Below, piece by piece: positions 13,856 to 54,245 of a stretch of 64,000 nt of DNA. The translations under genes and the position numbers were made by a program. Position 1 is the first letter of the stretch, and each line of letters opens with the position of its first letter. Source of the DNA: Persicimonas caeni (GTDB lineage Bacteria; Myxococcota_A; Bradymonadia; Bradymonadales; Bradymonadaceae); the NCBI RefSeq assembly GCF_006517175.1, contig NZ_CP041186.1, forward strand, positions 6,351,074 to 6,415,073. The letters are read 5' to 3'. The notes under the pieces are model-generated. The model was given only the letters and a program-made list of their open reading frames with translations, did not search any database and was not told the DNA's origin.

Positions 13856-13906
13856 CGGTCTCAGTTGCGCCGATCGGGAACCAGGTTCCCTGACGAAGCC
13901 GGGCGA

Positions 13907-14152
13907 ACATAGGAGCCGTACGAATCTCCGAGGCATGTTCGGGGCGAACATGGGGCTCGTACGAATCTCCAAGGGCTGTGCGCGGCGGACATCGGGTCGC
14001 CGCGAATCTCCGACGCCTGTTCGCGGCAGACATTGGGGCGCCGCGAATCTCCGAGGCATGTTCGGGGCGGACATCGGGTCCGTACGAATCTCCAAGGCAT
14101 GTTCGGGGCGAACATGGGGCTCGTACGAATCTCCGAGGCATGTTCGGGGCGG
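13907..14152. repeat. Tandem array A: six 41-bp units
   Basis: Six consecutive units of exactly 41 bases start at 13907, 13948, 13989, 14030, 14071 and 14112. The core reads CGTACGAATCTCCGAGGCAT, and junctions form the dyad ATGTTCGGGGCGAACAT, perfect in the best copies. 41 bases is close to four helical turns, so the dyads face the same side of DNA. 41 is not a multiple of three, so it is not a coding repeat. Confidence 0.9.
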
Positions 14153-14316
14153 ACGGAGGAGTTTTCCACGCGAAAATGTGTGATGCGAGGCGGAAGGAGC
14201 ACTTTTCCGCGTCAAAATGTGTGATCCGGGACAGACAACGACGTGTGCGGCGCGAAAATATGTGCGCCGAGACGGACGGAGGAGTTTTCCGCGCGAAAGT
14301 GTGTGATACGGAGCCT
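14153..14316. repeat. Tandem array B: four more 41-bp units of a second subfamily
   Basis: Units at 14153, 14194, 14235 and 14276 keep the 41-base period of array A in register but carry a different core, with TTTTCCGCGCGAAAA, whose arms TTTTC and GAAAA are complementary, followed by TGTGTGAT. The first two bases and last three bases of each unit match array A. Confidence 0.85.
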
Positions 14317-14372
14317 TTCGGTGCGAGTGCTTCCAGCTCTCGCAGACGAGGGCAAGATGCCCCCGCACCGAA
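14317..14372. repeat. Dispersed palindromic repeat, copy 3 (inverted)
   Basis: Inverted copy of the element at 6429-6484, bounded by TTCGGTGCG and CGCACCGAA. Its right half is the first of three 30-base direct repeats. Confidence 0.8.
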
Positions 14373-14433
14373 TAGACGAGGGCAAGATACCCCCGCACCG
14401 AACAGACGAGGGCAAGATGCCCACGCACCGAAC
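14344..14433. repeat. Array C: three 30-bp direct repeats
   Basis: Units at 14344, 14374 and 14404 read AGACGAGGGCAAGATGCCC followed by C/A-CGCACCGAA and T or C. Each is one half of the TCGGTGCG palindrome and differs from the others by one or two bases, so the array looks like recent local duplication of half an element. Confidence 0.85.
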
Positions 14434-48757: not shown

Positions 48758-49738
48758 TCAACCGAGCTCCCCCGCCACATTACGCTGCAAATACGCCCGA
48801 CGCGCCTCCGCGTCGTCGTAGATCGCCAAGGCGTGCATGAGCTTCGGCACCGCCGCTTCGACGGTCATGCGGCCGCCCGACACCGCGCCGACCTCGGCGA
48901 GCTTGCGGCTATTTTGGTACAGGCTCAGGTCGACGAGTCCGTAGGCCTGGGTGATCACCAAGACCTCGATGCCCAGGCCCACCGCCTTTTCGACCGTGGG
49001 GGCGAGTGAGCGTTTGGCGGTGGGGACGGTGCCCGCGCCGAACGCGGCCAAGACGATGCCGTGCGGGTGGTCTTCCGCCTCGAGCATCAACTCGAAGAGG
49101 CGTGGGTTGAAGCCGGGGGTCATGTGCACGGCCAGCACGTGGTTGTCGAAGCGTGCGTCGGGGGCGAACGGCTCGTTGCGGTGCAGGACGTGGTCGGCCA
49201 CGTCGATGTCGACGCCCAGGCGGGCCAAGGGCGAGATGCCCGGGCTGTCGAAGGCGCGGTAGTCGCGGGCGTTGCTCTTGGTGCTGCAGCAGCCGCGCAG
49301 CAACAAGCCGTCGAAGCAGATGCCCACCTCGGGGATATCGCAGGTGGCGAGTTCGACGGCGTCGGCGAGGTTGCGTCGGGCGTCGGTGCGCAGCGCGGCC
49401 AGGGGGCGTTGGGCGCCGGTGAGCACCACCGGTTTGTCGAGGCCGGCGAGGCTGTAGGCCAGGGCGCTGGCCGAGTAGGCCATCGTGTCGGTGCCGTGGA
49501 CGATGACGAAGCCGTCGTAGTCGTCGTAGTGCTCGGCGATCTTGTCGGTGAGCGTGGTCCAGTGCTCCGGGCCGATATCGCTCGAGTCGAGGTTGAAGAC
49601 GATCTCGGTGTCGATCTCGGCCAGCTCGTTGAGCTCGGGCACCGCGTCGGTCAGCGCCTGCGAGTAGGCGTTGGGTTCGAGGGGCTCGCCGGTCATGCCG
49701 AGGGTGCCGCCGGTGTGCAGCAGGAGGACGCGCTTCAT
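48758..49738 (-). CDS. ansA: Type I (cytoplasmic) L-asparaginase
   Basis: 326 residues from ATG 49738, where GGAG is 5-6 bases upstream. A longer upstream frame is repeat-derived. Catalytic Thr residues are Thr12 (LLHTGGTLGM) and Thr83 (VHGTDTMAY), with support from TGAQRPLAALRTDARRN. Hydrolyses Asn to Asp and ammonia. No signal peptide, so cytoplasmic type I. The family fold ends TQAYGLVDLSLYQNSRKLAEVGAVSGGRMTVEAAVPKLMHAL. Functionally this is housekeeping or nitrogen scavenging; it stands alone with repeat-rich spacers on both sides. Confidence 0.92.
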   Translation of the reverse strand: MKRVLLLHTGGTLGMTGEPLEPNAYSQALTDAVPELNELAEIDTEIVFNLDSSDIGPEHWTTLTDKIAEHYDDYDGFVIVHGTDTMAYSASALAYSLAGLDKPVVLTGAQRPLAALRTDARRNLADAVELATCDIPEVGICFDGLLLRGCCSTKSNARDYRAFDSPGISPLARLGVDIDVADHVLHRNEPFAPDARFDNHVLAVHMTPGFNPRLFELMLEAEDHPHGIVLAAFGAGTVPTAKRSLAPTVEKAVGLGIEVLVITQAYGLVDLSLYQNSRKLAEVGAVSGGRMTVEAAVPKLMHALAIYDDAEARRAYLQRNVAGELG

Positions 49739-50180
49739 GGGAACTCCGAGGGGTTGGGTGCAGTCTCGGCGACCATTGCCCAAATTGTGGCGTTTTGGCA
49801 AGCGAGGGATGCCGGCCTGGTCAGAATGGCTTCTGAGGGTTGTGGGTTGGGGTCGGGCGCGGCTCGGGTCGTTTTTGGAAGGTTCGTCGTTGGGGGGGAT
49901 GTCGAGGTGGAGTCGCGTTGGAGGGGTTCGTCGTAGGGGGGGATGTCGAGGTGGAGCTGCGTTGGAGGGGTTCGGAGATAGGGGGGATGTCGAGGTGGAT
50001 GGCGAAGTTGAGGGGGCTTCCGAGGGTGCGCTCATCGGTGGACCTGCGGGTCCACCGATTGCGCTTACCCCCGGTGACGAGGTCGTGTGGCGGGGGGTGG
50101 GAGGTCGGAACCCGCTGGGTGTGACGTGAGTCGCGCCGGAGCCCCGGGTCGAACCCTCTGGGTGTGACGTGAGTCGCGCC
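49739..50180. other. 442-bp repeat-rich spacer
   Basis: Contains a 44-base tandem array at 49881-50012 (three units, each with GGGGGATGTCGAGGTGG), a palindromic element at 50018-50074, and a 43-base duplication at 50106-50180 carrying GGGTGTGACGTGAGTCGCGCC that ends directly at the HD-GYP stop. The open frames here are repeat artefacts and no gene is called. Confidence 0.7.
50018..50074. repeat. Dispersed palindrome family B, copy 1
   Basis: TTCCGAGGGTGCGCTCATCG is matched across a variable tip by CGATTGCGCTTACCCCCGG. The tip is GTGGACC-TGCG-GGTCCAC. A second copy (51866-51938) keeps the frame but has a different, still self-complementary tip. Confidence 0.75.
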
Positions 50181-51797
50181 CTAAGAGTCCTCGCTAAAGT
50201 CGACGTCGCGTTGCTCTTCGAGCAGCTCCTCGTCGGCGTAGGCGTCGAAGACACCGCTGTGCATCCCGAAGGCGACGATGTCGGGGTCGAGCTCGTTGTC
50301 CTCGACCATGCTGTGCAGGATGCGACGGACTACGCTCGCAGGAAGCGCGTCTTTGTAGGGGCGGTCGGCGGCGGTGAGCGCCTCGAAGATGTCGGCCACG
50401 GCTAAGATGCGCGCCGGCAGCGACAGCGCCTCGGCGCCCAGCCCGCGCGGATACCCCGAGCCGTCGAGCTTTTCGTGATGGCTCGCCGCGATCTCGGGGA
50501 CGCTCTCGAGCTCGGGGGTGAACGGCAACTCCGAGAGCATCTCGAGGCTGACGCGGGCGTGATTGCGGATGATCTGGATCTCGTCCTTGGTCAGCGTCCC
50601 CTTGCGAATGCACAGGTTCTCGACCTCGTCGTCGGTGAGCAGCGGGCGCGCGTGGCCGCCCGTCGTCCAGGTGCGCTGGGCGATGGCCTCGACGCGCTCG
50701 ACGGCCTCGTCGGCCATGAACTCGCCGCCCTTGTTGCACGTCTCGAGGAATTCGCGCTCGGCGCGAAGCTCGGCGACCGTGTCGGAGAAGCGCGCCTCGA
50801 TGTCGGAGACGTCGGCGTCGGGGCCCTGGGCGCGCACGCGGTCGAGCTTGGCCTGCAGCGCCTCGATGCACGCGTCGCGCTCGAGCACCTCGTAGCGGGT
50901 CTGTATCTCGGCGATGCGGTCGTGGATGGTCTCGAGCTTGGTCGCCTTGTCGACGACCCACTCGGGGGTGGTCACTTTGCCGACGTCGTGCATCCAGCCG
51001 GCCACCCGCAGCGCCTTGCGCGCGCTGGCGTCGAAGTGCACGTCGGCAAAGGGGCCCTCGTCGGCGGCGTCGATGGCGTCGGCCAGCCTGAGCGTGATGT
51101 CGACCACGCGGCGCACGTGCCCGGCGGTGTAGGGCGACTTGGCGTCGATGGCCGTGGCGATGGTGCGGATAAACGCCTCGAATTGCTCCTCGAGGATGGT
51201 GAAGAGCTGGGCGTTTCGCACCGCCACGGCCGCCTGCGAGGCGAGCGAGGCGGTCAGCTCCTCAAGGCGCTCGCCGAACGCGACGACCTCGCCGGTCTCC
51301 TCGCGCGCGTTGATGAGCTGCAACACGCCGATGACCCCGCTCGAGTGGTGGCGAAGAGGGACGACGAGCATCGACTTCGACCGGTAGCCCGTCTCCCGGT
51401 CGAATTTGAGCGGCCCGGTAAAATCCCACTCGTCCTGCTCGCAGTAGACGTCGGCGATATTGGCCGTCTCGCCGGTATTGGCCGCCCAGGTCGACACGTT
51501 CGACAGCCGCGGCCGGCCATCCTTGCGCAGCGGAATCGGCCGAAAGATCGCCTCGTCGAGCTCCTCCTCGGAGGTCCCGCCGATGCGAATGCCCATCGTC
51601 TCGTTCTGCACGATCTTCCAGTCGAGGCAGCCGCGCTCCTCGTCGACCAAGAAGAGCGTGCCGCCGTCGGCGCGGGTAAACCGACGCGTCTCGTCGACGA
51701 CCATTTCGAGCAAGACGTCGAGGTTGCGCTCGGTCGACAGGGCGGTGCCGATCTGGATGAGGTGGTCGACGAGTTGGAGGAGGTCTTGTTGCTGCAT
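50181..51797 (-). CDS. GAF-HD-GYP cyclic-di-GMP phosphodiesterase-like protein
   Basis: 538 residues from ATG 51797, where the conserved GAF begins (DLLQLVDHLIQIGTALSTERNLDVLLEMVVDETRRFTRADGGTLFLVDEERGCLDWKIV). A further start at 51890 adds a Pro-rich leader encoded by a palindromic repeat and is doubtful. HD-GYP domain: GHVRRVVDITLRLADAI, the metal-site MHDVGKV, then a roughly 100-residue insert before HHEKLDGSGYPRGLG and ADIFEALTAADRPYK. All residues expected for a c-di-GMP (or cGAMP) hydrolase are present. A GAF sensor usually binds a cyclic nucleotide or haem. No signal peptide, cytoplasmic. Ribosome-binding site weak for either start. Confidence 0.88.
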   Translation of the reverse strand: MQQQDLLQLVDHLIQIGTALSTERNLDVLLEMVVDETRRFTRADGGTLFLVDEERGCLDWKIVQNETMGIRIGGTSEEELDEAIFRPIPLRKDGRPRLSNVSTWAANTGETANIADVYCEQDEWDFTGPLKFDRETGYRSKSMLVVPLRHHSSGVIGVLQLINAREETGEVVAFGERLEELTASLASQAAVAVRNAQLFTILEEQFEAFIRTIATAIDAKSPYTAGHVRRVVDITLRLADAIDAADEGPFADVHFDASARKALRVAGWMHDVGKVTTPEWVVDKATKLETIHDRIAEIQTRYEVLERDACIEALQAKLDRVRAQGPDADVSDIEARFSDTVAELRAEREFLETCNKGGEFMADEAVERVEAIAQRTWTTGGHARPLLTDDEVENLCIRKGTLTKDEIQIIRNHARVSLEMLSELPFTPELESVPEIAASHHEKLDGSGYPRGLGAEALSLPARILAVADIFEALTAADRPYKDALPASVVRRILHSMVEDNELDPDIVAFGMHSGVFDAYADEELLEEQRDVDFSEDS

Positions 51798-51865
51798 GGC
51801 GGTCTTGGGTGGAGTTGGCGGTGGTGGGGGGATGGTATTTGCGGGGCGCGGACTTGTCGAGGTGC

Positions 51866-51938
51866 GAGGCGTTTCCGGGGGTGCGCTCATCGAGTGCGCC
51901 GAGGGCGCGCTCGATTACGCTTACCCCCGGGAAGCCTC
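51866..51938. repeat. Dispersed palindrome family B, copy 2
   Basis: Left arm GAGGCGTTTCCGGGGGTGCG pairs with CGCTTACCCCCGGGAAGCCTC on the right, with CATCG/CGAT inside. The apical stem here is AGTGCGCC/GGCGCGCT, with bases unlike copy 1 but still complementary. It lies in the HD-GYP upstream region and contains the doubtful ATG at 51890. Confidence 0.75.
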
Positions 51939-52001
51939 AACCCTCGACAAACGTTGCACCATGATACTAACCTCCGCCCGCCTTCATAACTTGGAGTACT
52001 G

Positions 52002-54245
52002 ATGACCACTGCAGCAATGACCAACGCCCACGCCCCCCTCGCCGACAGCCTCCAAGAGGGCCTGAAGACCCTCTTTGGCTTCGACGAATTCCGCAAAGGG
52101 CAGCGCGAGGCGATGGAGACGATCATGGCCGGCGACGACGCGCTCGTCGTCATGCCGACCGGGTCGGGTAAGAGCCTTTGCTATCAGCTCACCGCGTGCG
52201 TCAAAGAAGGCGTGACGCTGGTCATCTCGCCGCTGATCGCTCTGATGAAGGACCAGGTCGACAGCCTGCAGAAGCTCGGCCTGCCGGCCACCGAGATCAA
52301 CTCGTCGATGAGCTGGGACGAGCAGCAGCGGCGTATCGAGGGGCTCAGGCTCGGCGAGTACAAGCTGGTGTACGTGGCGCCCGAGCGTTTTCGCAGCGGG
52401 TCGTTTCGCCGGGCGCTCGCCCAGGTCGACGTGTCGATGCTGGCGGTCGACGAGGCGCACTGCGTGAGCCAGTGGGGCCACGATTTCCGGCCCGACTACC
52501 TTCGTATCTCCGACATTCGCCGCGAGTTGGGCAACCCGCAGACCGTGGCGCTGACGGCGACGGCCACCAAATTCGTCCAAAAAGATATCGTCGAGCAGCT
52601 CGACATGCCCGACGCGCATATTCTGGTGTCGGGTTTCGAGCGTCCCAACCTCTTCTTCGAGGTGTTCCACGCCCGGCGCGACAGCGACAAGCTCAAGCGG
52701 CTCGTCGCGCTCATCGAGTACTACGACGGCGAGTCCATCGTCGTGTATTGCGCCACGCGCAAGCAGGTGCGCCAGGTCCAAAAGAAGCTCGCCCGCGAGG
52801 GGATCAGCTCGAGCACCTACCACGGCGGCATGGGCGACGTGGATCGCGCGCAGACGCAGAACGCCTGGATGGACGGCGAGGTGCCCGTGCTCGTGGCCAC
52901 CAACGCGTTCGGCATGGGCGTCGACAAGCCCGACGTGCGCGCGGTGGCCCACTACAACGTGCCCGGCAGCGTCGAGGCGTATTACCAGGAGGCCGGCCGC
53001 GCGGGGCGTGACGGCGATCCCGCCCATTGTCTGCTGCTGTTCAACTACGGCGACAAGGGCATCCACGACTTCTTTACCGAGAACTCGTACCCGCTGCGCA
53101 CCGAGGTGATGCTCGTGTGGCAGTACCTGAGCGGGCTCGGGACCGGCACGCACGCGGTCGACGCCGACCGTATCTCCGACGAGTTGGCGCGTCAGGGCGG
53201 CAAGATTCACTCGTTCGGGGTCGACTCCATCCTTCGCCTGCTGCAGAGCGGCGGGCATATCGAGGTGTTGCCGGCCGGGCAGGGCGTCACGGTGCTCGAC
53301 GAGACGCCGGTGGGCGAGGTGAACGTCGACTTCGAGGCGGTCGCGCACCGGCGCGAGGTGGCCAACGAGCAGCTGGGAAATATGCTGCAGTACGCCTCGA
53401 GCCAGAGCTGCCATCAGGCCGAGCTGCTGCACTACTTTAACAGCGAGCCGAGCTTCGGAGAGCGCTGCGAGAATTGCTCGTCGTGCTCGGGCATGCCCGA
53501 GTATGTCGAGGAGAACGCCGAGGCGCTCCAGAAGTCGATCGCCACGGCCGAAGCGCCCGACGTGCTCATCAAGAAGCTCTTGGCGGGTGTGGCCCGCGGT
53601 CGCGGAAAGCGCGGGGCGCACGCAGTCGCGGCGATGCTGCGCGGCTCGATGGCCAAGTCGGTCACCGAGGCGGGCTTCGACAAGTTGAGCACCCACGGGA
53701 TCTTGAGCGCGATGGTCCAGGACGACCTCGTGCATCTGCTCGACATGCTCACCGCCAGCAAGCTGGTGGAGCGAAACGAGTACGGCTGCGTGTCGATTAC
53801 GTCGCTCGGGGCGGACGTCATGCGCGACGACGCGCCGATGCCCGAGTCGCTCGAGCGTCAACTCGACATCACGCTGGTCGAGCCGTCGCGGCGCCAGAAG
53901 CGCAAGCAGACGCGTCGCTCCGATGCGGCCGCGGCCACCGGGAGCACTTATGACCGCACGCTCGAGCTCGTCCAACAGGGGCTCACCCCCGACGAGATCG
54001 CCGAGGAGCGCGGCCTGAAGACGCGCACCATCACCAACCATCTCATTACGCTCGCCGCGCGCGGGGACACCTTCGACCTCGAGCCGTATCTCGACGGCGA
54101 TATCCTGGCGCGCATGCGCACCCTGGCGGCCGACTGGCAGGACGGCGACGCGCTCCGCCCGCTCAAGGACGAGCTGCCCGAGAGCTGCTCGTACCCCAAG
54201 CTCAAGATTCATCTCGCTCAGGTGTTGATGGAGCGCGAAGGGTGA
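52002..54245 (+). CDS. recQ: ATP-dependent DNA helicase RecQ
   Basis: 747 residues, GGAG 7 bases before ATG 52002. Helicase motifs: Walker A MPTGSGKSLCYQL, DEAH (Asp150, LAVDEAHCVSQWGHDFRPDY), VALTATATKFV, QEAGRAGRDG with the arginine finger and YCATRKQVRQVQ. The RecQ zinc site is Cys470, Cys489, Cys492, Cys495 in CHQAELL...CENCSSC. RQC winged helix and a C-terminal helix-turn-helix (TPDEIAEERGLKTRTITNHLITLAARGD) follow; an HRDC domain is not evident. A 3'-5' helicase in repair and recombination. The next gene is 103 bp away, so transcription may be shared, but function suggests independence. Confidence 0.95.
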   Translation: MTTAAMTNAHAPLADSLQEGLKTLFGFDEFRKGQREAMETIMAGDDALVVMPTGSGKSLCYQLTACVKEGVTLVISPLIALMKDQVDSLQKLGLPATEINSSMSWDEQQRRIEGLRLGEYKLVYVAPERFRSGSFRRALAQVDVSMLAVDEAHCVSQWGHDFRPDYLRISDIRRELGNPQTVALTATATKFVQKDIVEQLDMPDAHILVSGFERPNLFFEVFHARRDSDKLKRLVALIEYYDGESIVVYCATRKQVRQVQKKLAREGISSSTYHGGMGDVDRAQTQNAWMDGEVPVLVATNAFGMGVDKPDVRAVAHYNVPGSVEAYYQEAGRAGRDGDPAHCLLLFNYGDKGIHDFFTENSYPLRTEVMLVWQYLSGLGTGTHAVDADRISDELARQGGKIHSFGVDSILRLLQSGGHIEVLPAGQGVTVLDETPVGEVNVDFEAVAHRREVANEQLGNMLQYASSQSCHQAELLHYFNSEPSFGERCENCSSCSGMPEYVEENAEALQKSIATAEAPDVLIKKLLAGVARGRGKRGAHAVAAMLRGSMAKSVTEAGFDKLSTHGILSAMVQDDLVHLLDMLTASKLVERNEYGCVSITSLGADVMRDDAPMPESLERQLDITLVEPSRRQKRKQTRRSDAAAATGSTYDRTLELVQQGLTPDEIAEERGLKTRTITNHLITLAARGDTFDLEPYLDGDILARMRTLAADWQDGDALRPLKDELPESCSYPKLKIHLAQVLMEREG

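Follow-up and report, generated by a model that had tools for sequence, protein, structure and literature searches.

In Persicimonas caeni, two palindromes with the same arms and different tips lie 1.85 kb apart on either side of a GAF/HD-GYP gene, which raises the question of what these elements are and how a hairpin can stay paired through changes of its sequence. Both are located in the window, i.e. the whole stretch of 64,000 nucleotides analysed here (NZ_CP041186.1, positions 6,351,074 to 6,415,073), and all positions below refer to this window unless stated otherwise. They read best on the minus strand and share one orientation, being two singles rather than an inverted pair (Table 1).

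Table 1. Positions of the two palindromes and the neighbouring genes in the window
Feature	Positions	Strand	Evidence
Copy 1, whole model match (tag, hairpin and tail)	49993-50080	-	Covariance model R1, 70.1 bits, E 4e-18; copy 1 is part of the model's own training set
Copy 1 hairpin (lower stem, AA bulge and apical stem)	50020-50074	-	DNA fold -25.2 kcal/mol, z -8.0
Copy 1 apical stem ATCGGTGGACC/GGTCCACCGAT, variable part	50034-50059	-	Fold and sequence
Copy 1 unpaired 5' tag CGTCA, immediately ahead of the stem	50075-50079	-	GTCA in 15/18 aligned copies
Copy 2, whole model match; tag degenerate (CTTC)	51847-51936	-	R1, 70.9 bits
Copy 2, opposite-strand match	51869-51957	+	R1, 46.1 bits
Copy 2 hairpin	51875-51930	-	DNA fold -24.5 kcal/mol, z -6.2
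Copy 2 apical stem, variable part	51889-51915	-	Fold
GAF + HD (HD-GYP type) gene, between copies 1 and 2	50181-51797	-	Pfam HD_5 3e-35, GAF 2e-12
Asparaginase-family gene, tail side of copy 1	48758-49738	-	Pfam PF00710 4e-57
RecQ-type helicase gene, head side of copy 2, divergent from the HD-GYP gene	52002-54245	+	Pfam DEAD, Helicase_C, RQC, RecQ_Zn_bind

Folded as single-stranded DNA, both palindromes are far more stable than their dinucleotide shuffles, which have means of -9.9 (copy 1) and -11.7 kcal/mol (copy 2), and none of the 200 shuffles of either copy folds as well. A search of the chromosome (8,047,206 bases) for the shared arms around a free tip gave exactly three matches, compared to none for the reversed control pattern. 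The two palindromes with common arms reported in the initial annotation are thus confirmed. Their tips had been described as different yet self-complementary, which holds overall and for GTGGACC/GGTCCAC in particular. However, the complementarity of the copy 2 tip, AGTGCGCC/GGCGCGCT, is not perfect, with one T.G position on the plus strand (A.C on the minus strand) that is drawn as a 1x1 mismatch in the fold. In the best DNA fold of both copies, the AA forms a bulge next to GCGC pairs and not an AA/GC loop. Copy 2 is bordered by tail-like sequence on both its sides, as reflected in its match on the other strand.

Several tandem repeats are present in the window. A 44-bp tandem array (49881-49999) lies on the tail side of copy 1 and a duplication spaced 43 bp (50108-50180) on its head side, and an array of approximately ten 41-bp units is found at 13901-14311. 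Slippage at the hairpin was considered as an origin for the two repeats next to copy 1 and those at loci L022 and L033, and was dropped, as 83 tandem repeats were counted in 201 kb of control sequence.

Based on loose pattern searches and the covariance model, the palindromes belong to a family with 20 copies, which are spread over 12 intergenic loci of the 8.05-Mb chromosome. The model was built on 18 copies, and the scores of these trained-on copies are not independent, while the pattern searches are. In the genome-wide model search, the best 150 of 12637 first-look candidates were scored, so the family comprises at least 20 copies. Whole-genome pattern searches, one of them with loci fetched for 30 of its 61 matches, yielded no additional recognisable copy. 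The counts, alignment, covariation and fold classes reported for 18 copies leave out the two most diverged ones (L013- and L032-), while the ATG, attC-box and CTCG-motif counts cover all 20. No relatives were detected in 56 other genomes of the class or in 281 other genomes of a phylum sample, using strict filters with the best 78 or 15 candidates scored per genome, by which weak relatives may escape. Viral contigs gave no match to a family pattern with 20 specified bases, and a plasmid search with 49900-52000 gave a match confined to the HD-GYP coding part (query positions 451-1112). A literature search covering Bradymonad palindromes, CGTC-tagged REPs with transposases and RAYT/REPIN systems found no description of the family. 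It therefore appears to be new to the literature, small and found in one bacterium.

On the window's minus strand, the elements are composed of (C)GTCA as an unpaired tag, a lower stem of 8 bp that is conserved, an unpaired AA, an apical stem that varies in sequence and length and stays paired, and a 3' tail of approximately 25 nt. The consensus (IUPAC) is TCGTCA-CCGGGGGT-AA-GC-NNA-RTCGA-variable tip-TCGAY-GA(A)-GC-GC-ACCCTCGG-AAGGGTCGCAGCTCGWCAA. Conservation is focused on the tag (GTCA in 15/18 copies), the lower stem, the AA (17/18) and the GC opposite to it (18/18), with the core TAAG/CGCA being complete in 14 of the 18 copies. An E. coli REP sequence has this same core and matches 5375 of 5426 E. 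coli genomes. The best DNA fold contains a 2x2 AA/GC internal loop in 11 copies and an AA bulge in six, including both window copies, while one copy forms a perfect stem. CTCGTCA precedes the hairpin in 10/20 copies and CTCG(T/A)CA is found in the tail of 10/20 (0.011 expected per tail), with four copies carrying the motif at both ends. As the motif recurs ahead of the tag as well as in the tail, a putative CT cut site may lie on both sides of the element.

Inverted pairs are present at eight of the 12 loci, with the tags pointing inward in all eight and spacers of 19 to 182 bp. Five of these spacers have related blocks of 22-67 bp in common. The neighbouring genes are codirectional at six loci, divergent at five and convergent at one, with open reading frames at ten loci being chosen by GC3 and not by annotation. 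At locus L028, the upstream frame stops within the hairpin head. Ten of the 12 loci lie within a stretch of 1.95 Mb (1.70-3.65 Mb), which is 24% of the chromosome.

One function proposed at the outset was that the palindrome supplies a start codon, reading MSAP, to the HD-GYP gene and perhaps to other genes. Indeed, the ATG of copy 2 leads into the HD-GYP gene in frame, as does that of copy 1 into the asparaginase gene, with no stop in between, and a long frame also opens at the ATG of copy L022-. However, the in-frame ATGs of the window copies are weak evidence, because stop codons are rare in GC-rich DNA. Only 7/20 family copies contain an ATG, and three of the seven resulting frames end in less than 50 codons. 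Moreover, the start of two orthologues lies downstream of the extension. In genome G008, which has the best relative of the HD-GYP protein (57% identity), the alignment sets in at residue 31 of the long frame, and stops lie just ahead of the relative's own ATG, while the match in G010 (59% identity) from residue 17 contains an in-frame TGA. A search of named genomes with the HD-GYP protein returned distant relatives only. The proposed supply of a start codon is not borne out by these data and is considered very unlikely. Judging from the aligned sequences, translation likely starts at 51797 (a methionine, residue 32 of the long frame) and not at the palindrome ATG at 51890.

The central claim of the initial annotation, that pairing is conserved while the sequence is not, was examined by stem covariation across the genome copies and is upheld on 18 of the 20. 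A lack of covariation in further copies, which would have refuted it, is thus not observed. In the alignment, 97.8% of the cells contain standard pairs compared to 93.1% in shuffles, and 16 cells are changed on both sides compared to 4.4. The covariation score of 0.216 was reached by none of 500 shuffles and by no slid control, bearing in mind that kinship among copies inflates such statistics. One measure is contrary, with eight further pair types observed against 9.1 in shuffles, because shuffling creates many one-sided types. All 18 tips differ from one another. Nevertheless, tip halves pair better with their own partner (mean -8.65 kcal/mol) than when swapped (-6.67 kcal/mol), and none of 5000 permutations matched the observed sum. 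In the inner helix, the changes that preserve pairing are all two-sided (7+4+0+1+3 = 15 cells); no cell changed to a one-sided standard pair, and no G-U intermediates were seen among the 18 copies. In copy L029-, the left arm has been rewritten as the reverse complement of the right arm, giving a perfect stem of 25 bp (-37.5 kcal/mol) in which the AA is lost. The reading of this pattern as the signature of a selected RNA or cruciform structure is therefore retained only for the conserved pairing; selection is unproven, given the lack of G-U intermediates and the arm copying in L029-, both of which template switching would produce.

We consider it rather probable that these palindromes are lineage-specific REP-like (BIME/REPIN-like) hairpins, non-autonomous, for which we infer a spread between genes as single-stranded DNA hairpins through a trans-acting HUH tyrosine nuclease of the Y1/RAYT type. 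Recognition by the candidate nuclease would involve the unpaired tag together with the lower stem and the AA irregularity, while the apical stem would need pairing alone, so that its sequence could drift and its pairing stay. The low copy number, the clustering of ten of the 12 loci, the tag GTCA and the AA bulge of the window copies count against this, as do the finding that no Y1 gene is flanked by the family and the fact that neither an empty site nor an excision product was seen in this one genome. A different origin of the conserved pairing would be mutation itself: template switching during replication copies one arm onto the other, and the family would be old repeat debris with self-renewing pairing. 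This is possible, though somewhat doubtful. The 15 two-sided cells of the inner helix, the copied arm of L029- and the tail-like sequence on both sides of window copy 2 all agree with it. In addition, the mechanism is documented for RNA genes, where according to the available text of PMC8794818 it yields compensatory changes without selection. Running freely, however, it would wipe out irregularities, yet the AA is kept against the GC in nearly every copy, so something protects this asymmetry. It also leaves the dispersal to 12 loci and the inverted pairs without explanation. The two processes may act together, with template switching as the source of the changes, of which those would survive that leave the irregular lower half recognisable. 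The family thus offers a compact natural data set in which a DNA hairpin keeps its pairing through sequence change, and as a case of arm copying is visible in it, selection and template switching can be distinguished. Combining both in more specific terms, the family could be a REP system with a changed guide, in which one of the genome's Y1 enzymes, acting in trans, would cut GTCA-tagged, bulge-type hairpins at CT^CG on either side, with the tips renewed by template switching and the asymmetry read by the enzyme protected. This model is unlikely as it stands; if true, it would provide a mechanism for orphan CGTC-tagged repeats.

Elements acting at the RNA level, i.e. hairpins at transcript ends that would confer mRNA stability, terminate transcription or serve as protein-binding sites, would also be intergenic and covarying, and the copies form strong hairpins under RNA folding as well. 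However, five of the 12 loci lie between divergent genes, where there is no transcript end, and just one between convergent genes; the elements occur in both orientations at eight loci, and the inner helix is devoid of G-U intermediates. No intrinsic terminator (GC hairpin with T run) was called at the window copies within 49700-52100, which together with the mostly codirectional or divergent context argues against a transcription terminator. No Rfam family matched, the lone microRNA match (E 0.07) being far under its gathering score. An RNA element is thus quite unlikely, and the data fit a single-stranded DNA hairpin no less well than RNA. Integron attC sites or other recombination sites of tyrosine integrases are likewise imperfect hairpins that have variable tips and unpaired bases. 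The R' box of integron attC sites reads GTTRRRY. This box is present in none of the 20 copies (100 nt from the tag), and the family forms inverted pairs between ordinary genes and no cassette arrays, so that this possibility can practically be dismissed.

Returning to the mobile REP-like hairpins, the genome is rich in potential enzymes, with 28 Y1-type ORFs (26 identified by PF01797 and two more by NF047646). A scan of nine Y1 proteins gave IS200-family matches for six, four of them over the cut-off, and matches to the REP-associated family for three, all under its cut-off; the cut-off of NF047646 was reached by none of 22 Y1 ORFs. No Y1 gene is flanked by the family among the 28, for which all flanks were inspected (R1 was run on 26 and a motif scan on the other two). 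R1 also gave two weak matches in the vicinity of L050, a Y1 gene (E 0.04 and 0.14), which were rejected, as the motif was absent on reading. Other Y1 genes do have adjoining short hairpin repeats of their own. L071 is flanked on both sides by the hairpin repeat GGTGCGGGGGCATCTTGCCCTCG (L071 1872-1961 and 2925), and this single gene with its repeat may be like a classical RAYT with its own REPs. L244 (2923-3607) sits amid arrays of the GCAGCGCTTCGAGCGCT repeat. This genome thus does contain REP-like repeats beside Y1 genes, compared to which the family described here is an orphan; it adds to the orphan REPs, with 28 candidate enzymes in the genome.

Some further features of these genes and repeats were observed. 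The GGTGCGGGGGCATCTTGCCCTCG repeat occurs five times in the window (1038, 6432 and 14369-14429), and long head-to-tail arrays of a short palindrome (GGAGGCAGCGCTTCGAGCGCTGGTGGTTTT) are found both up- and downstream of the Y1 gene in L244. A leader resembling GCCGAAAACCGTAnTGAGG is present shortly upstream of the start of Y1 genes L046, L050, L051, L071, L244, L052-L067 and L070, IS200-like and RAYT-like alike. A RAYT-like Y1 gene of approximately 320 aa occurs as about 17 similar copies (L052-L067 and L070), many of them near-identical, with conserved flanks that include GGTGTCAGACACC hairpins. As REP-associated transposases are single-copy as a rule according to the available part of PMC8266576, this gene seems to spread as an insertion sequence would.

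The pattern of constraint in the family, with a tag, unpaired bases in the middle of the stem and an apical stem conserved in structure only, is that of the substrates of E. coli TnpA_REP, a resemblance that was noted after the fact. According to the text available from PMC8266576, the mismatches A12A13-G26C27, the preceding T, which the enzyme contacts, and the tag all matter for TnpA_REP, the upper stem must be present but may be replaced by its complement, and no change of the GTAG is tolerated. Like group 2 REPs/BIMEs of E. coli, the family has an unpaired tetranucleotide just 5' of the stem, a conserved lower stem ending T-A, the bases AA opposite GC followed by G-C (folding as the 2x2 loop in 11/18 copies), a variable apical stem, inverted pairs and an extragenic location. 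Unlike these, its tag is GTCA and not GTAG, the three copies lacking GTCA having no GTAG either. It also has a second internal loop, a conserved tail of approximately 25 nt and about 20 copies compared to hundreds, while the AA bulge is preferred in 6/18 copies and none of the 28 Y1 ORFs inspected is a REP-flanked tnpA.

Similarities to the CGTC-REPs, as far as described in the available text of Di Nocera et al. (2013; PMC3733652), are the CGTC at the tagged end (15/18 copies), the presence of Y1 genes in the genome with none associated, and the frequent pairs. However, CGTC-REPs have a stem of 8-9 bp with A-T at the first two positions and a 3-nt tail, in contrast to the long interrupted stem, the lower stem of 8 bp starting with C-G and the tail of approximately 25 nt found here, and their tags point predominantly outward, inward pairs being rare, as opposed to inward in 8/8 pairs. 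With the REPINs, going by the available text of Bertels and Rainey (2011; PMC3116915), the family shares inverted doublets with a spacer, an extragenic location and RAYT-like genes in the genome; it differs in having few copies, no adjoining RAYT and a mobility that is putative. Since defining features of both named REP groups fail when tested, the family is assigned to neither E. coli group 2 nor the CGTC-REPs. It is nonetheless REP-like in build, and as a repeated extragenic imperfect palindrome, often in inverted pairs (20 copies, 12 loci, eight pairs), it shows the feature common to REPs, BIMEs and REPINs in the broad sense.
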